From the IMG/VR virus record IMGVR_UViG_3300032360_000046, positions 1-25,577 of that record: 25,577 bases of DNA, one strand, 5' to 3'. The notes beneath the pieces were generated by a model, which was not told the DNA's origin, did no database searches, and saw only the letters and a program-made list of their open reading frames with translations. The number at the start of each line of letters is the position of its first letter. The first letter of the stretch is position 1. The position numbers and the translations under genes were made by a program. Source of the stretch: a virus. Shown piece by piece: positions 14,337-22,925 of the stretch.

Positions 14337-16382
14337 ATGCATTTTTTCCAGGAAAATTTCAACGGAGAAAACATTACTCCTGGTGATAAAGGGGATTTTT
14401 TGCATGAGATGTGGGAGCACGGTCTTCATCTGATACCTTGTGGATCTCCCCTCGAAGTAGTCCCTAAATATTTTAGGACCCGACATCCTTTCGATACCGA
14501 TGACGTACTAAAAGCTAAGTGGGCAAAAACGCCCAGGGTTAAGTGGACCCATTATCAAAAGATCCAGCCGAGTGAAAAAGAAATTAACCAGTGGCATGAA
14601 CAATACCCTGATGCTAACTGGGCAGCAATCACCGGCATCAGCTTTGTTGTTGTCGATGCAGACAGCGATGAGGCCGTTACCTGGGTTGAGTCTGGTGCGA
14701 TCACGCGTACACCACTGGTTCAGAAAACTCCCCGCGGCGGCACACATTTCTTTTACGCAACAGGTCATGATGATATCCGTAACTCTGTGGGCAAGAACAA
14801 GATTGATGTGCGTGGAGATGGTGGCTACGTCATGGTTGTGCCCAGTGGGGGGTATAGCCTGAAGTGTGAGCCAAACTATGGTGTTAGCTCTGTCAGTGAC
14901 CTTCCCCTCCTGTCCAGTGTAGACCTGGAGCATATCCATGGCTTCAATGCTGTGGATCCCAACACCGGAGAAGTGGTCAGCATTCGCAACAAGCTCACCG
15001 AAGAACCCAAGGTTGAAGGCAACCGTAATGACACGCTGGCTAGACTGGTAGGCAAGTGGATCAAGGAAGGGTGGGGACTCAGAGAAGTTCTCATTAAATC
15101 CCAGGACTGGAATCAAACCTGCTTCCCGCCAATGGATATGGTAGAGGCTACCAGAACTGTGCTCTCTATTGCCCAAGGACACCTCAAGCGTAATCCAGAC
15201 ATGGCTGAGAGTGGTATCAATCAATGGCACACCTCGACATGGGAGACCGGGATCAGTGAGGATCTCAAAGAGATACAATCCCAGGAAGACCCTATTGATA
15301 CCCCTGAAAAACCAGACGTTAGCCCCCTTGGTTTAGTCCCTTTCAACGCGCCTCAATGGCAAGAGATGGAAGACGACACCATCGAGCAGTACTGGGGTGA
15401 TAAGTTTATTTTTGAAAACAGTCGAGTGCTCCTGCTTGGCAAGCCAAAGATCGGTAAGAGTAACTGGTTGGGTGGCTTCGCTTCAGGTGCAACTACCGGC
15501 ACTGATTTCATGGGCCGACCTTTTAATAAGCCACTCAAAGTAATGTGGCTCCAGGCTGAGATCATCGCAGAATTCTTGAAGCAGCGAGTCGAGATGTACT
15601 ACCAGAGATTCTCAACAAACGATGACCTCCGGCAGATCGGTTTCAGTAACCTTATTATATCTGGGCGGCTGCGTAAAAATTTAATGAAGGATGCAGACAT
15701 CCAGGCTATCAGTGATGAGATTGCTTTTCATCAGCCAGACATCCTGATGATTGACCCCATTATTAATTTCTTCGACGGTGAAGAGAACAGCAACACAGAA
15801 ATCAGGAAGCTCCTGGACCGGATCGATATGCTGATAGAGATGCACAAGTGCGCTGTCGTACTCGCACATCATACCGGTAAAGAGAGAGTCGATGACAGAT
15901 CATTCCTGTCAGCACGAGGCGGCAGCGTGTTCGCCGGTTGGTTCGACAGTGGCATCAAACTGATGGGCGAAAAGCCTAATATTAATTTGTTCTATGAAGC
16001 GCGTAATGCAGCAGACCCACAAGAACACCTCGCGTTCTTTGATTTCGATGACGGCCTGTGGCAGGTGAGTGACTTTACTAAGATCCAGAAGAAGAGCGAT
16101 GATGAAATCTCAGAAGATGAGGTTGGGATAGCCGGTATCGTTATGAAAGCAATGAAGGAAAACGAATTCTATAAGCGATCAGACCTGGAATTCCTAGCTA
16201 AGACCGCACTCAAGCAGCACAAAAAAGCGAATGGGAACCGCGCTTGTAAGAAAGCAGTTGGATATGTACAGAAACATTTGGGTCACATCGTGCATACCCA
16301 TGCGGAACCGGGCATGGCAATGTGGCATTATCTGGGTAGCAGTACAGCAGCGAAACCTTGGGAGGTACAGAATGAGAAATGA
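14337..16382 (+). CDS. Bifunctional primase-polymerase / RepA-like (AAA_25) helicase
   Basis: A 681-aa fusion. The N-terminal half is a prim-pol domain of the archaeo-eukaryotic primase type: VVDADSD (105-111, metal-binding Asp107/Asp109), PRGGTHFFY (132-140, His137) and DVRGDGGYVMVVPSGGY (157-173). Residues about 225-285 look like a helical linker. The C-terminal half is a RecA-fold helicase: GKPKIGKS (368-375, Walker A), ILMIDP (469-474, Walker B) and AHHTGK (510-515), as in RepA/AAA_25 hexameric helicases. After about 585 a small helical tail follows. It would unwind and prime phage DNA. No stand-alone primase or DNA polymerase is in the window. The start ATG follows an AGGA-type ribosome-binding site by 7-8 bases. 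Confidence 0.88.
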   Translation: MHFFQENFNGENITPGDKGDFLHEMWEHGLHLIPCGSPLEVVPKYFRTRHPFDTDDVLKAKWAKTPRVKWTHYQKIQPSEKEINQWHEQYPDANWAAITGISFVVVDADSDEAVTWVESGAITRTPLVQKTPRGGTHFFYATGHDDIRNSVGKNKIDVRGDGGYVMVVPSGGYSLKCEPNYGVSSVSDLPLLSSVDLEHIHGFNAVDPNTGEVVSIRNKLTEEPKVEGNRNDTLARLVGKWIKEGWGLREVLIKSQDWNQTCFPPMDMVEATRTVLSIAQGHLKRNPDMAESGINQWHTSTWETGISEDLKEIQSQEDPIDTPEKPDVSPLGLVPFNAPQWQEMEDDTIEQYWGDKFIFENSRVLLLGKPKIGKSNWLGGFASGATTGTDFMGRPFNKPLKVMWLQAEIIAEFLKQRVEMYYQRFSTNDDLRQIGFSNLIISGRLRKNLMKDADIQAISDEIAFHQPDILMIDPIINFFDGEENSNTEIRKLLDRIDMLIEMHKCAVVLAHHTGKERVDDRSFLSARGGSVFAGWFDSGIKLMGEKPNINLFYEARNAADPQEHLAFFDFDDGLWQVSDFTKIQKKSDDEISEDEVGIAGIVMKAMKENEFYKRSDLEFLAKTALKQHKKANGNRACKKAVGYVQKHLGHIVHTHAEPGMAMWHYLGSSTAAKPWEVQNEK

Positions 16383-16671
16383 TTCATATTTTAATCTTAC
16401 TTATAAGGCAGTAAACGGTGAAGTGGACATGGATTTTTTTATGAAATCCGACGAGGAGGAACAGGATGAATATTTTGATACCCGGCACAAGAACTGGATT
16501 AAACATCTTCAAAATGCAGGGTTTGAAGATCATCGGGATTACTTCAAATGGAGAAGGCAGATTATCTTTGAGCAAAGAGAGGCAGGGGAAAAATATAAAA
16601 GTATAGCTGAAGATCACAATATAAGTGTATCAAGAGCAGCACAAGTTTATCGACAAGGACGGGGTGGATAA
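16372..16671 (+). CDS. Small protein with C-terminal helix-turn-helix, possible regulator
   Basis: A 99-aa protein. The ATG at 16372 is chosen because GGGAGGT precedes it by six bases; an upstream in-frame ATG at 16231 lies deep inside the helicase gene and is unlikely. The N-terminal part is very acidic (DEEEQDEYFD). Residues about 74-95 (YKSIAEDHNISVSRAAQVYRQ) fit a helix-turn-helix of the sigma-70 region 4 or small-terminase type. It overlaps the helicase gene by 11 bases and precedes the structured leader of the modification cassette, so a role in regulating that cassette is possible but unproven. Confidence 0.62.
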   Translation: MRNDSYFNLTYKAVNGEVDMDFFMKSDEEEQDEYFDTRHKNWIKHLQNAGFEDHRDYFKWRRQIIFEQREAGEKYKSIAEDHNISVSRAAQVYRQGRGG

Positions 16672-16676
16672 AGAAA

Positions 16677-16793
16677 GTACTGCACCAGGCCCGAATAGGT
16701 AACCCAGTGCAGTACAAATACCCAAAGCAATTAAGGTATCGTTAGCAAATAAGGGGGTCTGCTAACAATTAGATAGTAACAAAGGATGGTTAC
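16677..16793 (+). promoter_or_regulatory. Structured 5' leader of the DNA-modification cassette (three inverted repeats)
   Basis: Between the HTH gene and the cassette, three perfect inverted repeats follow one another: GTACTGCAC (16677-16685) with GTGCAGTAC (16707-16715); GTTAGCA (16741-16747) with TGCTAAC (16760-16766); and GTAAC (16776-16780) with GTTAC (16789-16793). The loop of the third holds AAAGGA, the ribosome-binding site, and its stem ends one base before the ATG at 16794. This could be an RNA control element, operator dyads, or a mix. None is followed by a T run, so simple terminators are unlikely. It does not match the preQ1 riboswitch consensus that I know. Confidence 0.5.
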
Positions 16794-17663
16794 ATGAACA
16801 ACCCATATTTAGTTGACGGTCCAACGTGCATCAGTTTCAGTGGTGGCAGAACATCTGCCTTCATGTTGTACAAGGTGCTCGAAGCTTATGACGGATACCT
16901 TCCTGAAGATTGTGTTGTTACCTTTGCGAACACAGGGAAAGAGATGCCGGAGACATTGGACTTTGTCCAGGCTTGCTCCGAGAACTGGGATGTCCCTATC
17001 GTCTGGCTTGAAAGAGAGATCAAAAGAAATACAGAAGAAAAGCCTATGTACCTGTACGAAACACGGGTTGTCGATCACGAAACCGCAGCAAGAAATGGTG
17101 AACCCTTTACTGCACTGATCAAAGCAAGAAGATATGCCCCGAACCCAGTCGCACGATTTTGTACCCAGGACCTGAAGATCAAAGCAATTGGCCAGTATCT
17201 ACGCGAAGAACGAGGATTCCCAAACCCCTATGTGTGCTTGATCGGCATCAGAGGTGATGAGCAACGCCGAGCAGCCAAGATGCATGGCACTGTCGCAGAA
17301 TTTCAGGAACGACACCTGCCGTTATGGCTTGACGGCATCACGAAAGAGGATATCTATGAGTTCTGGATCAATCAAAACTTCGATCTGCAACTACCCAACA
17401 ACAACGGTACAACAGACTGGGGCAACTGTGATCTGTGCTTCCTCAAAGGACTGGGTAAGAAGTTGAGCATCATCGAGGCAAGACCGGACCTCGCTGACTG
17501 GTGGAGTGAACAGGAGCAGACATTGAGTAAGGCGGTTGGCAAAGGCGCATCGTTCAGAAGTGATCAACCCACCTATGCAGATATGAAGGTCATAGCATCA
17601 GACCAGGGAAGCTTGTTCGGATTCGGAGATGATGAGTCAATACCCTGTTTCTGTGGAGATTAG
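16794..17663 (+). CDS. PP-loop ATP pyrophosphatase, PAPS-reductase/DndC-like, of the 7-deazaguanine cassette
   Basis: A 289-aa protein with the PP-loop SFSGGRTSA (14-22) that binds ATP and adenylates a substrate, followed by FANTGKE (44-50) and RFCTQDLK (121-128, Cys123), typical of the PAPS-reductase superfamily. Extra cysteines occur at NCDLC (Cys212, Cys215) and at the very C-terminus (Cys285, Cys287 in PCFCGD), possibly a metal site. The ECGxH catalytic motif of true PAPS reductases is absent, so sulfate assimilation is doubtful. It is the first gene of a tight operon with dpdA, queC and queE, so a step in making, activating or modifying the deazaguanine base is a fair guess. Family secure, reaction unknown. 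Confidence 0.8.
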   Translation: MNNPYLVDGPTCISFSGGRTSAFMLYKVLEAYDGYLPEDCVVTFANTGKEMPETLDFVQACSENWDVPIVWLEREIKRNTEEKPMYLYETRVVDHETAARNGEPFTALIKARRYAPNPVARFCTQDLKIKAIGQYLREERGFPNPYVCLIGIRGDEQRRAAKMHGTVAEFQERHLPLWLDGITKEDIYEFWINQNFDLQLPNNNGTTDWGNCDLCFLKGLGKKLSIIEARPDLADWWSEQEQTLSKAVGKGASFRSDQPTYADMKVIASDQGSLFGFGDDESIPCFCGD

Positions 17664-17666
17664 AAG

Positions 17667-18437
17667 ATGATTCACTACCATGGCATTCCCATATCCGGCG
17701 CAGAAAAAAACCAGATGTCATTGTCTGGGAAGCATGCGTTTGTGTCGTTTGCTGGGGCGCAGCATACCGCCTTGGTTGCTGAGATATGTCAGTCATTCGC
17801 CATTGATAACGGTGCTTTTTCTGCATGGAATTCAGGCAAGGATTTTGATCTTCATGGGTTTGCTACTTTCGTCGAGACATGGCATAGACACCCAGCTTTT
17901 GACTGGTACATCTTGCCCGATGTTATTGGTGGTAACCACCTTGAGAATGAGGAGTTGAGAAACACATGGCGCAAGAAAGTTTCAGACGACATCTGGAACA
18001 AGGGTGTGCCAGTGTGGCATCTACATGAACCAATAGAAGTGTTAAAGGACATGATCAATATGAGTAGGTTGTACAACCAATTCCCCAGGGTAGCATTCGG
18101 ATCAGGTGATTTTGCAGATGTCGGTACGCTTAAATGGTGGAACCGAATGGCTCAGGCAATGGAGGTGTGTTGCGATGACCAGGGTCGCCCGAAGGTTAAA
18201 TTGCATGGCTTAAAAATGCTTGATCCAACCGTGTTCTCGCACCTGCCACTGTCATCAGCAGACTCAACAAACGTAGCTCGAAGCTGTGGCCTTGATAAAG
18301 CATGGGGTGGCCCGTATGCACCCGCTACCGTTTACGGTAGAGCCTTAGTGATGATGGAACGGATCGAGATGCATGCGTCAGCAGCACGATGGTCAAACAC
18401 AAATGGTATTAATAGAAACCTGGAGTTATTCGGATGA
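17667..18437 (+). CDS. dpdA: DpdA-like DNA 7-deazaguanine transglycosylase (TGT-related)
   Basis: A 256-aa protein whose motifs fit the short phage DpdA branch of the tRNA-guanine transglycosylase fold: AIDNGAFSAW (45-54, Asp47), LPDVIGG (83-89, Asp85), WHLHEP (117-122), VAFGSGDFADVGT (142-154), KLHGLKMLDP (178-187) and SADSTNVAR (197-205). DpdA enzymes swap guanine in DNA for a 7-deazaguanine such as preQ0. A GGAG ribosome-binding site precedes the ATG. The gene ends in an ATGA overlap with queC, whose product would supply the base. This is recognition from motif layout and context, without a database search; catalytic residue identities are inferred from TGT. Confidence 0.8.
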   Translation: MIHYHGIPISGAEKNQMSLSGKHAFVSFAGAQHTALVAEICQSFAIDNGAFSAWNSGKDFDLHGFATFVETWHRHPAFDWYILPDVIGGNHLENEELRNTWRKKVSDDIWNKGVPVWHLHEPIEVLKDMINMSRLYNQFPRVAFGSGDFADVGTLKWWNRMAQAMEVCCDDQGRPKVKLHGLKMLDPTVFSHLPLSSADSTNVARSCGLDKAWGGPYAPATVYGRALVMMERIEMHASAARWSNTNGINRNLELFG

Positions 18438-19138
18438 GTGCAGATGCGTTGGTTGTTTTTTCAGGGGGACAGGATTCCACAACTTGCCTGTATTGGGCGA
18501 AAGAAAAATGGGATCATGTCGAGGCAATAACATTTAACTATGGGCAAAGGTCTTGTTGGTTGGAAGTTGAAGCAGCAAGTGACATAGCAGAGAATGCTTG
18601 TGTCACACATGAGATTGTCGATATTCCCGATTGCCTGGTCTCATCCAGTCCATTGACAAGCGACACCCAACTGGAAGCCTATGACTCATTCGAGGAGATG
18701 GAAGACACAATCGGGACACGCAGAGAGATGACGTTTGTGCCGATGCGCAATGCATTATTCTTGACACTCGCAGCGAATCGAGCAGAAGCTAAAGGCATCA
18801 GCAACATCGTAACCGGTGTCTGCCAGATGGATAATGCCAACTATGACGATTGCCGACATGTGTTTTTATATGCAACAGAACAGTATATCAATACAGCATT
18901 GGGACACGATCATCGAGGTACGCAATGGATCAGCATCCATGCACCCCTTTTGTACATGAGCAAAGCACAGAGCATCTACCTAGCACAATCAATACCAGGG
19001 GCGTTTGATGCATTAGGTAATTCTGTCAGCTGCTATGAAGGATTCTTCCCCCCTTGTGGAAAGTGTCACGCATGTGTATTAAGAGCAGAAGGATTTAAGC
19101 AAGCTGATGTACCCGATCCATTACTTCAGAATGTATAA
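18434..19138 (+). CDS. queC: QueC, 7-cyano-7-deazaguanine (preQ0) synthase
   Basis: A 234-aa protein with the PP-loop SGGQDST (10-16), the NYGQR motif (35-39), VPMRN (102-106), GVCQMDNANYDDCR (128-141) and the zinc site Cys200-x7-Cys208-x2-Cys211-x2-Cys214 ending CVLRAEGF, all as in QueC. QueC uses ATP and ammonia to turn 7-carboxy-7-deazaguanine into preQ0 through an amide intermediate. Length is normal for the family. The start overlaps the dpdA stop as ATGA, and queE begins inside its last codons. In phages, queC beside dpdA marks DNA modification rather than tRNA queuosine synthesis. Confidence 0.93.
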   Translation: MSADALVVFSGGQDSTTCLYWAKEKWDHVEAITFNYGQRSCWLEVEAASDIAENACVTHEIVDIPDCLVSSSPLTSDTQLEAYDSFEEMEDTIGTRREMTFVPMRNALFLTLAANRAEAKGISNIVTGVCQMDNANYDDCRHVFLYATEQYINTALGHDHRGTQWISIHAPLLYMSKAQSIYLAQSIPGAFDALGNSVSCYEGFFPPCGKCHACVLRAEGFKQADVPDPLLQNV

Positions 19139-19739
19139 GGTTAAGGAAATATTTTACACGCTCCAGGGCGAAGGGCATCACAGTGGTAGACCCGCTGTAT
19201 TCTGCCGGTTCACTGGGTGCAATCTCTGGTCAGGGCAAGAGCGACACCGGAGCAGTTCAATCTGTCAGTTCTGCGATACCGATTTCATTGGTGGTGACAC
19301 ATTCAGCAGGGAAGAATTGGTAAACAAAATCAACAGCACATGGAAGGGGCAAGGCAATAAGTTTGTCGTGTTCACAGGGGGTGAACCGGCATTACAATTA
19401 GATGAGGCCCTGGTGGAGGAGGTTAAAGATCATGGATTCACAACGGCAGTTGAAACAAACGGGACACGGCAACTCCCAGATAACCTCGACTGGATTACGG
19501 TCAGCCCGAAAGCGTATACTCAACTGGTCATCACCCAGGGGAATGAGGTCAAGGTGGTCTACCCCCAAATCGGTATCAACCCACATGACTTTCAATCCCT
19601 AAACTTTGAGCATTATTATATTCAACCGATGGACGGTTTCATGCGCTTAAATAATACAAATAAAGCAATAGAGTATTGCCTGGGAAACACGCACTGGCAA
19701 CTCAGTACTCAGGTACATAAACGTGTCGGGATCAGGTAG
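19131..19739 (+). CDS. queE: QueE, 7-carboxy-7-deazaguanine synthase (radical SAM)
   Basis: A 202-aa protein from the ATG at 19131. This start is preferred over the in-frame ATG at 19107 because MYKVKEIFYTLQGEG is the usual QueE N-terminus; either start overlaps queC. The radical-SAM cysteines are Cys30-x14-Cys45-x2-Cys48, the spacing that separates QueE from the common CxxxCxxC pattern, followed by FTGGEPALQ (81-89) and VETNGT. QueE makes 7-carboxy-7-deazaguanine from carboxytetrahydropterin. Its substrate is normally made by FolE and QueD, neither of which is in the window, so the host or another part of the phage genome must supply it. Confidence 0.92.
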   Translation: MYKVKEIFYTLQGEGHHSGRPAVFCRFTGCNLWSGQERHRSSSICQFCDTDFIGGDTFSREELVNKINSTWKGQGNKFVVFTGGEPALQLDEALVEEVKDHGFTTAVETNGTRQLPDNLDWITVSPKAYTQLVITQGNEVKVVYPQIGINPHDFQSLNFEHYYIQPMDGFMRLNNTNKAIEYCLGNTHWQLSTQVHKRVGIR

Positions 19740-19794
19740 GGGCAAAAACACTTAGGAGCGGAAGTTAATGGATTTTCTAGGTAAAATAACGTAA

Positions 19795-19810
19795 GTTAGT
19801 GAACACTAAC
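19795..19810. repeat. Perfect dyad GTTAGTG-AA-CACTAAC
   Basis: Seven-base arms separated by AA, 56 bases after queE. AACGTA occurs as a direct repeat on either side (19788-19793 and 19808-19813). The short spacer favours a protein-binding operator or origin element over an RNA hairpin. Confidence 0.55.
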
Positions 19811-19846
19811 GTAGGGTCAATCGGGCTTTTTTCAAATTGACCCTAC
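19811..19846. repeat. 11-bp perfect inverted repeat built from two GGGTCA motifs
   Basis: GTAGGGTCAAT (19811-19821) pairs with ATTGACCCTAC (19836-19846) around a 14-base loop containing a T run. It could fold as a hairpin at the end of the queE transcript, but the T run is in the loop and not after the stem, so it is a poor intrinsic terminator. It is also the first two members of the GGGTCA repeat family. Confidence 0.55.
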
Positions 19847-19992
19847 CCCCTGTGGATAAGTCAGTAAGTGCTTGATTTGCAAGGGAAAGATAGGTAGGGT
19901 CACATGGGTCACACTGACCCTACGTTGACCCTACTGACCCTACCTCGTAAGTCATTGATTTATAAGGGTGGGTCATAGGGTCACATGGGTCA
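19814..19992. repeat. Ten GGGTCA/TGACCC iterons, candidate replication origin or packaging site
   Basis: GGGTCA occurs on the + strand at 19814, 19897, 19906, 19970, 19978 and 19987, and inverted as TGACCC at 19838, 19915, 19926 and 19935. Most are part of the longer GTAGGGTCAC or ATGGGTCAC. TAGGGTCACATGGGTCAC is repeated exactly at 19895-19912 and 19976-19993, inside a degenerate unit of about 80 bases (also sharing GTAAGT, TTGATTT and AAGGG) present twice. With the DnaA box and AT-rich palindrome alongside, an iteron-type origin is plausible. The position just before terS equally allows a small-terminase binding (cos/pac) region. Confidence 0.65.
19851..19859 (-). promoter_or_regulatory. 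Perfect DnaA box
   Basis: TGTGGATAA is the reverse complement of TTATCCACA, the consensus bacterial DnaA-binding sequence. It lies within the GGGTCA iteron block, which raises the chance that it is functional; a single 9-base match could still be coincidence. Confidence 0.5.
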
Positions 19993-19993
19993 C

Positions 19994-20032
19994 TCTCTAA
20001 AGAGAGGGAGAGATATATTAAAATATCTCCCT
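19994..20032. repeat. AT-rich palindromic stretch beside iterons, possible DNA unwinding element
   Basis: GAGATAT (20010-20016) pairs with ATATCTC (20023-20029) around ATTAAA, flanked by GGGA and CCCT that extend the dyad with a small bulge. CTCTCTAAAGAGAG lies immediately before. An AT-rich element next to iterons and a DnaA box is a common origin layout. No gene is seen in 20033-20099, which is a CT-rich stretch ending in the terS ribosome-binding site. Confidence 0.4.
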
Positions 20033-20099
20033 ATCGCTACGCTCTCTCTCGCTCTCTTGAGAAGGGAGGGAAAAATAAAAAAATGAAGGAGACAAAATT

Positions 20100-20825
20100 T
20101 TGAACAAGTTAAATGATGCAGCAGATTCACAAGACCTGGATCCTGTTTCCTTGCCTCCGAATAAGGATATCTTACGGAACCCTGAACAGTATAAACCGAA
20201 AAGGAAACAGATGAAGTTCACACCTAAACAGGAAAAGTTTATTCAGCTGTATGTGTATCACGATCTTACCAACGTCGAATGCGCCCATCGTGCAGGCTAT
20301 GCCTTCCCCGCACCTGAAGCTACTAAAATGCTTAACGACCCAAGGTATGTCCATATACAAAACAAAATCTTAGAACTCAGAGAACTCGAACAGAAAAAAT
20401 ATGAGATCACTTTTGAGAAGGTCGCGCGTGACTTGCATAAGATTCGAGATGCCGCTATGGAAAACGGAACCTATGGCGCAGCAGTGCAAGCAGAACTCGG
20501 ACGCGCAAAACTCGCTGGCCTCCTGGTAGATAAAAAAGAAATCAAACACGGCAGGATAGATCAGATGGATAGAGCAGAGGTCGAAGCCAGATTGCAAAAA
20601 TTGCTAGAAAAAAATGAACTTGCGCCTATAACACCTCCTCGGATTGAAAGCACAGAGATCCTCCAGGAGGAGGATGAGGTTGACCCTTTGGATGATGTCA
20701 CTTATGGGGAGGAAACGGCTGAGATCGAACGAGAGGGCCTTCAGATGGAGGATTATGAGGTCATCGAGGATGAGGATGAAGATGAGGGTGAAAATGAAAA
20801 TCCCCCTCAAAAAGAGGGGGAGTAG
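20100..20825 (+). CDS. terS: Terminase small subunit (DNA packaging)
   Basis: A 241-aa protein starting at the TTG at 20100, supported by AAGGAG eight bases upstream; an ATG at 20083 hits a stop after six codons. Residues about 39-90 (FTPKQEKFIQLYV...NVECAHRAGY...ATKMLNDPRYVHIQNKI) match the helix-turn-helix domain of Terminase_2 small subunits, and 104-142 (ITFEKVARDLHKIRDAA...AELGRAKLAGLL) the following helical part. The last 45 residues are extremely acidic (Glu/Asp repeats). It would bind the packaging start site and recruit the large subunit. The large subunit gene is not adjacent: the next genes are on the other strand. Confidence 0.85.
   Translation: MNKLNDAADSQDLDPVSLPPNKDILRNPEQYKPKRKQMKFTPKQEKFIQLYVYHDLTNVECAHRAGYAFPAPEATKMLNDPRYVHIQNKILELRELEQKKYEITFEKVARDLHKIRDAAMENGTYGAAVQAELGRAKLAGLLVDKKEIKHGRIDQMDRAEVEARLQKLLEKNELAPITPPRIESTEILQEEDEVDPLDDVTYGEETAEIEREGLQMEDYEVIEDEDEDEGENENPPQKEGE
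20802..20820 (-). terminator. Probable intrinsic terminator of the leftward accessory operon, inside the end of terS
   Basis: CCCCCTC (20802-20808) and GAGGGGG (20814-20820) form a perfect 7-bp GC stem with a 5-base loop. Read leftward the stem is followed by ATTTTCATTTT, a T-rich tail, so it suits transcripts of the gene ending at 20830. On the + strand there is no T run after the stem. The stem also lies within the terS coding sequence. Confidence 0.55.
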
Positions 20826-21802: not shown

Positions 21803-22044
21803 GACGGCCCCTCCATATCCAATTCTTCAAGTGCATCTTGGATCTTTTCATACCCAAATCTATCGTAAAGATCATCAATCAAAGCATATAGATCTGTGTA
21901 CTCTCTAGAAAATGGAGGATACTCCATGTAAATATTCCGCAGTTCCGCTTGCTCAAAAATCCAATTAGGAAACCCAATCTTTTTAAGCTCATCGTATTCT
22001 TCTTGGCCAATATCAAGACTTTGCAGGTGTATTGTATATCTCAT
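21799..22044 (-). CDS. 81-aa acidic protein, paralogue of its downstream neighbour
   Basis: The gene starts at an ATG overlapping the methyltransferase stop (ATGA) and ends overlapping the next ATG in the same way. The N-terminal part (MRYTIHLQSLDIGQEEYDEL) is unique; the second half (YTDLYALIDDLYDRFGYE) matches the 52-aa protein. Acidic and helical. Function unknown. Confidence 0.62.
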   Translation of the reverse strand: MRYTIHLQSLDIGQEEYDELKKIGFPNWIFEQAELRNIYMEYPPFSREYTDLYALIDDLYDRFGYEKIQDALEELDMEGPS

Positions 22045-22925
22045 CGCGCCTCCTCTCCGTAATGGTTAATGTGATTCGCGTAAATTATTTCTCCGATTCG
22101 CTGCACAAGTTGAGGGACGACTGCGTTTCCAAGGGATCTAATTCTGTCCACCCGATTGGGAATCCCATCAACCACTCTGTCCACGCAGGGTTCAACTTGC
22201 CAGTTGGTCGGTGTGGGTTCTTGACCTTCGCACAAAGGTACGAGCGATTGTGCATGTGCGTATGACTCTTGCTCCCCACCGGTCCACAGTCCTTGTACTC
22301 GCTCGCCCGTGGTGTCGGCCATAACCGTATTGGATTGTCCGAAAGACTGTCCTTCACTGCCGATCCAATGTTCCACCCGTGATCTCCTGTCTTGTGAGAT
22401 GGTGCAATCTCCTCGCCTCCAGTCATTTTCGTCGGCGTGGGCCACAATCCAGCATCTGTCTCTGCGATGTCTCGCTTCGACGGCACAAGCCGGTATAACA
22501 AACGATTGGACTTGGTAACCTTCGTTTTCCAGGTCAGCGCACACATCGTCGAGTGCCATGCCGATGAACCCAGAAACATTCTCACCAATGACCCAAGTTG
22601 GACACGACTCTTGGATGATTCGAAACATTTCAGACCAGAGATCACGGTCATCTTTATTTCCAAGTTGTCTGCCTGCCTGTGAGTAGGGTTGGCAAGGGAA
22701 TCCTCCGCAAATAACATCAACTGATTTATATTGGCTTCCATCTAAACTCCTTATGTCTTCATGAATAGGTATGTCAGGCCAATGCTTGGCCAAGATCTGT
22801 CTACAGAATGCGTCCTTCTCACACATGGCAATGGTCTCCATCCCTGCCCACTCAAGGCCAAGAGAAAACCCACCAATACCAGAAAAAAGATCAAGAACTT
22901 TCATCGTCGGTCCCCATCCATTCAT
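22041..22925 (-). CDS. C5-cytosine DNA methyltransferase
   Basis: A 294-aa protein with the ordered C5-methylase motifs: LDLFSGIGG (11-19, motif I, SAM binding), GGFPCQPYSQAG (74-85, motif IV, catalytic Cys78), ENV (115-117, motif VI), RHRRDR (152-157, motif VIII) and RIRSLGNAVVPQ (261-272, motif IX). The target-recognition region between VIII and IX is short (about 100 residues). The start at 22925 has AGAGG five bases upstream; the ATG at 22904 is an alternative closer to motif I. It would methylate phage DNA, plausibly against host restriction. No cognate restriction enzyme is seen. A second long frame is nested in the gene. Confidence 0.92.
   Translation of the reverse strand: MNGWGPTMKVLDLFSGIGGFSLGLEWAGMETIAMCEKDAFCRQILAKHWPDIPIHEDIRSLDGSQYKSVDVICGGFPCQPYSQAGRQLGNKDDRDLWSEMFRIIQESCPTWVIGENVSGFIGMALDDVCADLENEGYQVQSFVIPACAVEARHRRDRCWIVAHADENDWRRGDCTISQDRRSRVEHWIGSEGQSFGQSNTVMADTTGERVQGLWTGGEQESYAHAQSLVPLCEGQEPTPTNWQVEPCVDRVVDGIPNRVDRIRSLGNAVVPQLVQRIGEIIYANHINHYGEEAR
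22085..22741 (-). CDS. Nested protein in an alternative frame of the methyltransferase gene
   Basis: A 218-aa reading frame on the same strand, shifted by one base, almost wholly inside the methyltransferase gene (from its codon 62). It has its own ribosome-binding site, AAGGAG (22752-22747), five bases from the ATG at 22741. The product has motifs I recall from phage proteins linked to C5 methylases: LTWKTKVTKSNRLLYRLVPS, two LWPTP segments (about 10 residues each) and a C-terminal LNPAWTEWLMGFPIGWTEL. The protein-like composition and motif repeats suggest real coding. A shadow effect of the conserved methylase frame cannot be excluded without comparative data. Confidence 0.62.
   Translation of the reverse strand: MEANINQLMLFAEDSLANPTHRQADNLEIKMTVISGLKCFESSKSRVQLGSLVRMFLGSSAWHSTMCALTWKTKVTKSNRLLYRLVPSKRDIAETDAGLWPTPTKMTGGEEIAPSHKTGDHGWNIGSAVKDSLSDNPIRLWPTPRASEYKDCGPVGSKSHTHMHNRSYLCAKVKNPHRPTGKLNPAWTEWLMGFPIGWTELDPLETQSSLNLCSESEK

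Follow-up and report, generated by a model that had tools for sequence, protein, structure and literature searches.

The viral record IMGVR_UViG_3300032360_000046 of IMG/VR is linear and lies complete in the stretch of DNA analyzed here (the window, 25,577 bases). Between positions 16794 and 19739 it carries four genes in one direction, encoding a PP-loop protein, a 256-amino-acid candidate for the base-exchange enzyme DpdA, and homologs of QueC and QueE, which act on the 7-deazaguanine precursors 7-carboxy-7-deazaguanine (CDG) and 7-cyano-7-deazaguanine (preQ0) (Table 1). Phage 7-deazaguanine DNA modification is itself a known kind, and a reading of the letters and open reading frames alone (the original prediction) had taken the four as a tightly coupled cassette by which guanine in the DNA of this phage is replaced with a 7-deazaguanine derivative. 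Open frames and family matches agree on four genes at that position. The ATGA overlaps that had been described hold for DpdA and QueC, the sole such overlap of the cassette, and not elsewhere, the PP-loop and DpdA genes being 3 bases apart. For QueE the start at 19131 is likelier than that at 19107, because the longer frame aligns with the TIGR04508 model only from its residue 10 onward, by an ATG that overlaps the QueC stop codon. The 25.6-kb record is a fragment of a virus genome; records with a related primase run up to 55 kb.

Table 1. Genes of the cassette and of its two flanks, with positions in the window
Feature	Position	Strand	Length (amino acids)	Basis or remark
PP-loop protein, NinC-like, PAPS-reductase-like, SspD-like	16794-17663	+	289	PF01507, phrog_424, SspD model; role in cassette uncertain
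Predicted short-type DpdA (base-exchange enzyme of tRNA-guanine transglycosylase fold)	17667-18437	+	256	phrog_887, fold model, conserved residues
QueC, CDG to preQ0 (7-cyano-7-deazaguanine synthase)	18434-19138	+	234	TIGR00364, PF06508, motifs
QueE, CDG synthase, Cx14CxxC type	19131-19739	+	202	210 with start at 19107; TIGR04508
Primase/helicase	14337-16382			Upstream of cassette
Small terminase	20100-20825			Downstream of cassette; PHROG 3.5e-9; below Pfam cut-off

The DpdA candidate had no Pfam or NCBIfam match in a search down to an E value of 1, and it matches PHROG 887, named queuine tRNA-ribosyltransferase, with an E value of 8.8e-58. Its AlphaFold model, made with 58 aligned sequences, has a mean predicted local distance difference test score (pLDDT) of 89.3 and a predicted template modeling score of 0.86. 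When the 1000 best chains from Foldseek were aligned a second time, the model superposed on the tRNA-guanine transglycosylase (TGT) 1iq8_A (Z 15.3, 3.6 Å over 226 residues) and on Cap10 of the type IV cyclic oligonucleotide-based antiphage signaling system (CBASS) (9ntn_A; Z 15.1, 4.1 Å over 237 residues); TGTs made up 49 of the 50 matches listed and Cap10 the remaining one. By model and alignment the protein thus falls inside the TGT fold, where the original prediction had placed it. A profile of the short-DpdA alignment was matched to the long DpdA of phage Seurat with an hhalign probability of 97.8% (the window and Seurat proteins are 22% identical by BLASTP), and residues D47, G49, A50, D85, P115, H180, D199, and S200 are invariant in all 17 aligned DpdAs (nine short, that of phage 7-11, and seven long); two of the conserved aspartates we take to be the TGT catalytic pair. 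The zinc motif of tRNA TGT, CxCxxC, is present in none of 174 short DpdAs. From the fold, the profile link to Seurat, the shared residues, and the lack of CxCxxC, the model and alignments identify the protein as a short-type ("singleton"-type) DpdA. A comparison of the short-DpdA alignment with Protein Data Bank chain sequences matched two designed proteins over a short stretch, which we treated as noise.

The short family is large, with at least 584 viral stretches, and relatives were found by tblastn in 105 of 50,697 phage records, every one below 60% identity. Judged by sequence, the DpdA of Salmonella phage 7-11 (159 bits against the short-family profile; 32% identity to the window protein over 191 residues; lacking the N-terminal MIHYHG stretch) and that of Pantoea phage MED16 (196 bits; 36% over 205 amino acids) appear to lie in or near this subfamily. 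In phages BTP1, SPN3UB, and SfI, preQ0 genes are not annotated within 4 kb on either side of the DpdA relative. One matching record of 1,719 bases, OR850331.1, is named as a Staphylococcus phage; the range and identity of its match equal those of the Salmonella BTP1 DpdA, and it is possibly mislabelled.

Membership in the TGT fold also admits a role in RNA: the module might raise queuosine in host tRNA, or the short protein might be a tRNA transglycosylase, in either case aiding translation. Queuosine is fed by the same precursors, and such a role has been proposed, in the available text of PMC6884629, for phages that encode the pathway but not DpdA. The missing zinc motif speaks against it, as do the absence of tRNA genes from the window and the occurrence of short-DpdA relatives in phages whose DNA is modified, namely 7-11 and MED16 (available parts of PMC6884629 and PMC8306585), and we hold it to be very unlikely.

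QueC scores 172.6 bits against TIGR00364 (equivalog cut-off 150.3), matches PF06508 with an E value of 1.6e-55, and has an intact frame with the motifs SGGQDS, VPMRN, YxDC, and CxxCxxC. The last is preceded by a C(x)7C spacing that recurs in several more of the phage QueCs, the published E. coli spacing being C(x)8C; the zinc-motif pattern matched nothing in many of the compared QueCs, where the spacing is different. QueE, a radical-SAM family protein, scores 291.8 bits against TIGR04508 (equivalog cut-off 240) and contains Cx14CxxC. It is 30-33% identical to the QueEs of named phages among the matches listed, and up to 52% identical to that of a gut phage. The 52% relative is encoded in human-gut phage scaffold MT835580 (L209, 5616-9711; L-numbers are labels of compared loci), where QueD-like and QueC-like frames and a 443-amino-acid frame resembling bacterial-type DpdA were also seen by eye. 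By tblastn, 322 of the 50,697 phage records have a relative of QueC and 187 one of QueE; both are rare in phages, and chance is therefore an unlikely reason for their lying side by side with a gene of the TGT fold. The identities originally proposed for DpdA, QueC, and QueE are thus upheld by profile matches, fold, and conserved residues. With the window QueC as query, 32 viral loci were found, and in 30 of them a frame matches the short-DpdA profile weakly, at 34-113 bits; phage QueC relatives mostly accompany a long-type DpdA, unlike the QueC of the window.

The short DpdA is recurrently coupled to genes for preQ0 supply. The 174 short-DpdA loci compared were drawn from viral contigs, related phages, named phages, and bacterial genomes; of at least 584 viral relatives the best 80 were used, and of 85 relatives in genomes likewise the best 80, so that the fractions describe relatives close to the window. 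Genes up to 200 bases away were counted as adjacent; for QueE the limit was 900, to include a QueE lying behind QueC. Removal of 43 near-copies (90% identity, same label) left 131 rows in the DpdA tree; rows shorter than 200 amino acids or below 190 bits were left out of it, and the 7-11 protein thus lies outside. A supply gene is adjacent in 34 of the 174 loci and in 25 of the 131 non-redundant ones, divided among a YhhQ-like (Vut_1) transporter in 10, QueE in 8, QueD in 5, and QueC with QueE in 2; the profiles for QueD and YhhQ derive from short-DpdA neighbors and may be more sensitive beside this gene than at other loci. The supply labels are scattered on the tree and require 20 changes, at least 15 of them forced by starred branches; support is lacking for 41 of the 128 inner branches. 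With the same profiles, no supply neighbor turned up at any of 80 loci of a control, the NinC-like gene, of which 39 are non-redundant (Fisher p 0.0014, a test that assumes independent rows, while these rows are related).

Examples of the neighboring genes were examined with curated models. Pfam models placed Vut_1 above cut-off in three of three, PTPS in one of one, and the QueC of L156 above cut-off, with the QueE frames of L142, L177, and L156 all below the Radical_SAM cut-off. NCBIfam QueD models matched in three of three neighbors, one of them above cut-off, and for all five QueE neighbors scanned a QueE model ranked first, above cut-off for L243 and below it for L177, L156, L142, and L189, the five frames representing two different QueE types. 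The QueC of L156 also exceeded its NCBIfam cut-off, and the L196 transporter had no NCBIfam match. When 43 longer records were searched whole, QueC was found in one, QueE in three, and QueD in five, and all five QueD genes are directly upstream of DpdA. The gene order of L156, DpdA-QueC-QueE, is that of the window; because its QueC is only 29% identical to that of the window and its DpdA lies elsewhere on the tree, the order probably arose twice. In Acinetobacter phage vB_AbaM_AB3P2 (L011, 5001-6193), a short DpdA is followed immediately by a Vut_1 transporter annotated as a hypothetical protein. As far as the literature search reached, the DpdA-QueC-QueE combination and the family-wide pairing are new; the main later work outside that search is reportedly a 2023 paper on DpdA3, DpdA4, and further enzymes.

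We read the window as containing a partial 7-deazaguanine DNA-modification module, DpdA-QueC-QueE, which lies in a variable slot, provides late steps only, and by its supply genes would raise modification for protection, and we give this reading a probability of about 0.78. The activity, product, level, and benefit that we infer for the window phage are as follows. QueE would convert 6-carboxytetrahydropterin to CDG, QueC would convert CDG to preQ0 via 7-amido-7-deazaguanine (ADG), and the short DpdA would exchange guanine in DNA for that base, giving the deoxynucleosides of preQ0 (dPreQ0) or ADG (dADG). On the PHROG matches of the 29 window proteins scanned, these two products are predicted as more likely than deoxyarchaeosine (dG+) or the deoxynucleoside of 7-aminomethyl-7-deazaguanine (dPreQ1), because no ArcS, QueF, or amidotransferase is named among them. 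The FolE and QueD steps would be performed by the host, unless they are encoded in the missing part of the genome. The added QueC and QueE would raise precursor supply, and hence the modification level, shielding the DNA from nucleases; we propose this because the two measured phages, whose short DpdA has no supply genes beside it, show modification at trace level only. Bulk replacement of guanine and protection are unproven.

FolE (PF01227) and QueD (PF01242) are absent from the 25,577-base record, as originally noted; for the whole virus their absence is not established, because the record is a fragment and related records are longer. QueD, FolE, and QueC were found in none of 12 related records of up to 55 kb, and a supply of precursor by the host would fit the partial-pathway pattern across the short-DpdA family. 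The window resembles the preQ0/dADG system of Escherichia phages CAjan and Seurat (DpdA, FolE, QueD, QueE, QueC) in its QueC and QueE families, its TGT-fold DpdA, and the conserved residues; it differs in the short subfamily of its DpdA (256 amino acids versus 306 in Seurat), in the lack of QueD and FolE from the record, and in the Cx14CxxC type of its QueE, with the modest identity to named phages given above. CAjan belongs to group 2 in the available text of PMC6884629, to which Seurat was assigned here from its annotation. Phages 7-11 and MED16 belong to the "singleton" DpdA phages, group 3 of the same text, to whose DpdA the window adds QueC and QueE.

Several observations weigh against this reading, and they concern the fold, the QueC motif, the family at large, and the measured relatives. 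As to the fold, the Foldseek ranking itself places Cap10 first (E value 1.7e-4), followed by unrelated barrels, with no TGT among the 50 matches listed, and comparison of the short-DpdA profile with the E. coli TGT sequence gave no match. In type IV CBASS, Cap9 and Cap10 form a QueC-family and TGT-family pair like that of the window, with similar fold scores (available text of PMC11996544), and the window pair might likewise act on protein instead of DNA; the window QueC has the YxQ(x)5E and YxDC spellings given for Cap9 in the accessible part of PMC13329287. That likeness is judged from motif spellings and fold scores, and YxDC spellings other than YPDC are common in phage QueCs beside a long DpdA. 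Moreover, the window QueC lies above the canonical equivalog cut-off and has VPMRN, the window has QueE, and its DpdA keeps the residues common to long DpdAs. No CBASS-type nucleotidyltransferase (CD-NTase) is named among the PHROG matches of the 29 proteins of this fragmentary record. Deazaguanylation of protein is, in our estimate, very unlikely and the least probable of the alternatives.

The QueC motif YxQxHxxE, kept in 35 of the 36 QueCs compared, is altered in the window alone, to YGQRSCWLE, with the histidine gone and one residue inserted; for this reason the activity of the window QueC is not assured. In the family at large, 106 of the 131 short DpdAs have no adjacent supply gene in the DNA searched. 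The 2019 survey describes phages with DpdA and no preQ0 genes as the largest phage group, with a modification status that is "difficult to predict", and finds YhhQ uncorrelated with any phage group (available text of PMC6884629). The measured relatives contain traces only: dADG at about 0.02% of G in the DNA of 7-11 (PMC6884629, available text) and at about 0.13% of G, with a trace of dPreQ0, in that of MED16 (PMC8306585, available text). In the MED16 digests only two enzymes were blocked, both Dam-sensitive, which the authors attribute to adenine methylation, and they state that dADG had little effect on the enzymes tested (PMC8306585, same portions). Profiles for QueC, QueE, QueD, and YhhQ had no match when run on the genome of MED16 and on 45 kb of that of 7-11.

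With the measured phages at these levels, the claim that guanine is replaced is not supported as worded, and by our analysis the window phage may equally well have its guanine modified in traces or replaced in bulk. The altered motif and the trace levels, together with related phages that have DpdA and QueE without QueC, would also suit a module in decay, in which QueC is disabled, CDG or host preQ0 is inserted, and the trace modification confers no benefit. The QueC frame is nevertheless intact over its 234 amino acids, its remaining motifs are present, and it retains the tyrosine of the altered motif, Tyr35, reported as essential in the accessible part of PMC13329287; we regard decay as an unlikely account of the window, if one to be reckoned with.

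The fourth gene is the one whose membership in the cassette is least clear. Its product matches PF01507 PAPS_reduct (27.2 bits, cut-off 22.5; E value 4.5e-6), phrog_424 (6.7e-49), and the PADLOC model of SspD from the Ssp phosphorothioation system (1.1e-15), and is 33% identical over 211 amino acids to NinC of phage lambda; its AlphaFold model (pLDDT 88.8) is most similar to an ATP sulfurylase subunit (Z 13.2) and to reductases of adenosine 5′-phosphosulfate and 3′-phosphoadenosine 5′-phosphosulfate (PAPS) (Z 12-13), and its alignment found nothing among Protein Data Bank chain sequences at an E value of 0.1. By sequence it is a homolog of lambda NinC and of phage PAPS-reductase-like proteins. 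PADLOC run on six window proteins, the sole search for them, found no Ssp or Dnd partner genes. The gene is a PP-loop gene, as originally described, and its place in the cassette is what does not hold firmly: the gene occupies the same slot in five sister loci (L103, L124, L251, L255, and L258) that have no DpdA, QueC, or QueE. DpdA is absent from the searched flanks of 79 of 80 viral relatives (the best 80 of 106), and QueC, QueE, QueD, and YhhQ matches from those of all 80. Because it is found in sister phages without DpdA, the gene is not obligate to the cassette, and its part in the pathway is uncertain.

The lack of DpdA beside 79 of 80 close relatives would by itself suggest that the PP-loop gene has nothing to do with the cassette; a placement test keeps its membership as an alternative. 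PAPS-profile proteins lie within 330 bases of a short DpdA in 8 of the 12 non-redundant loci that have one, the window excluded, with 1.3 expected, a count reached in none of 20,000 random trials. The same test placed supply genes near DpdA in 8 of 9 loci for QueE, 5 of 5 for QueD, and 11 of 11 for YhhQ; among controls, a methyltransferase was near in 3 of 12 (1.6 expected) and a helicase in 5 of 9 (1.5 expected, p 0.009). One match per locus was used, tree kinship was ignored, and the profile was followed down to 25 bits, so that the eight loci mix distant PP-loop families. Since the helicase is also nearer DpdA than random, the PP-loop adjacency is partly phage gene order.

All four genes might nonetheless form one pathway, in which the PP-loop protein performs a further ATP-dependent step, such as amidation or thiolation, to give an undescribed derivative. 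Beyond the placement count, the PP-loop frame shares 4 bases with that of DpdA in L015 and L338, and a YhhQ-profile match lies near the pair in L164 and, weakly, in L338. Such PP-loop proteins, lambda NinC included, matched the SspD model in nine of nine and PF01507 in eight of nine scanned, and C123, C212, C215, C285, and C287 are invariant in 40 aligned relatives, which suggests a metal or Fe-S site. The DpdA-less relatives and sister phages, the helicase control, and the mixed families all tell against a single pathway. Lambda encodes NinC and is not known to have 7-deazaguanine. We think a four-gene pathway improbable, and keep to the three-gene module.

The slot that holds the module, between primase/helicase and small terminase (14337-20825), varies among 33 related loci having both flanking genes. 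It contains a NinC-like gene in five, DpdA alone in one (L131), DpdA-QueE in two (L243 and L249), a methyltransferase-like gene in two (L236 and L257), another PP-loop-looking protein, by eye, in five, and none of these in 18; DpdA-QueE is found in L237 and L241 too. The window slot unites PP-loop, DpdA, QueC, and QueE, and the slot looks like a place of exchange for DNA-modification genes. The surroundings of the cassette also encode a Cas4-type exonuclease, a Sak4-like protein, and a single-stranded DNA-binding protein. Farther along, at 22041-22925, lies a cytosine-type DNA methyltransferase (type II, DruM, and orphan models), and the phage may thus modify its DNA in two ways. The gap that separates QueE from the small terminase contains, at 19811-19943, a cluster of TGACCCTAC/GTAGGGTCA, with six copies in either orientation together over about 130 bases and none in the rest of the window; the same gap has 12 copies of GGGTC/GACCC in L249 and only 0-2 in L124, L131, and L213. 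The cluster is a possible origin, operator, or packaging site.

A broader and doubtful proposal is that the short DpdA is a modular hub, to which QueD, QueE, QueC with QueE, a YhhQ-like transporter, or an SspD/NinC-like PP-loop enzyme is added in exchange for one another, according to the steps missing in the host, and that the PP-loop step, in the window and in scattered prophages, would yield an undescribed 7-deazaguanine derivative in DNA. For the family itself, the recurrent pairing with differing single supply genes indicates that the short DpdA subfamily does act in 7-deazaguanine metabolism, and it suggests that precursor supply limits the short DpdA.

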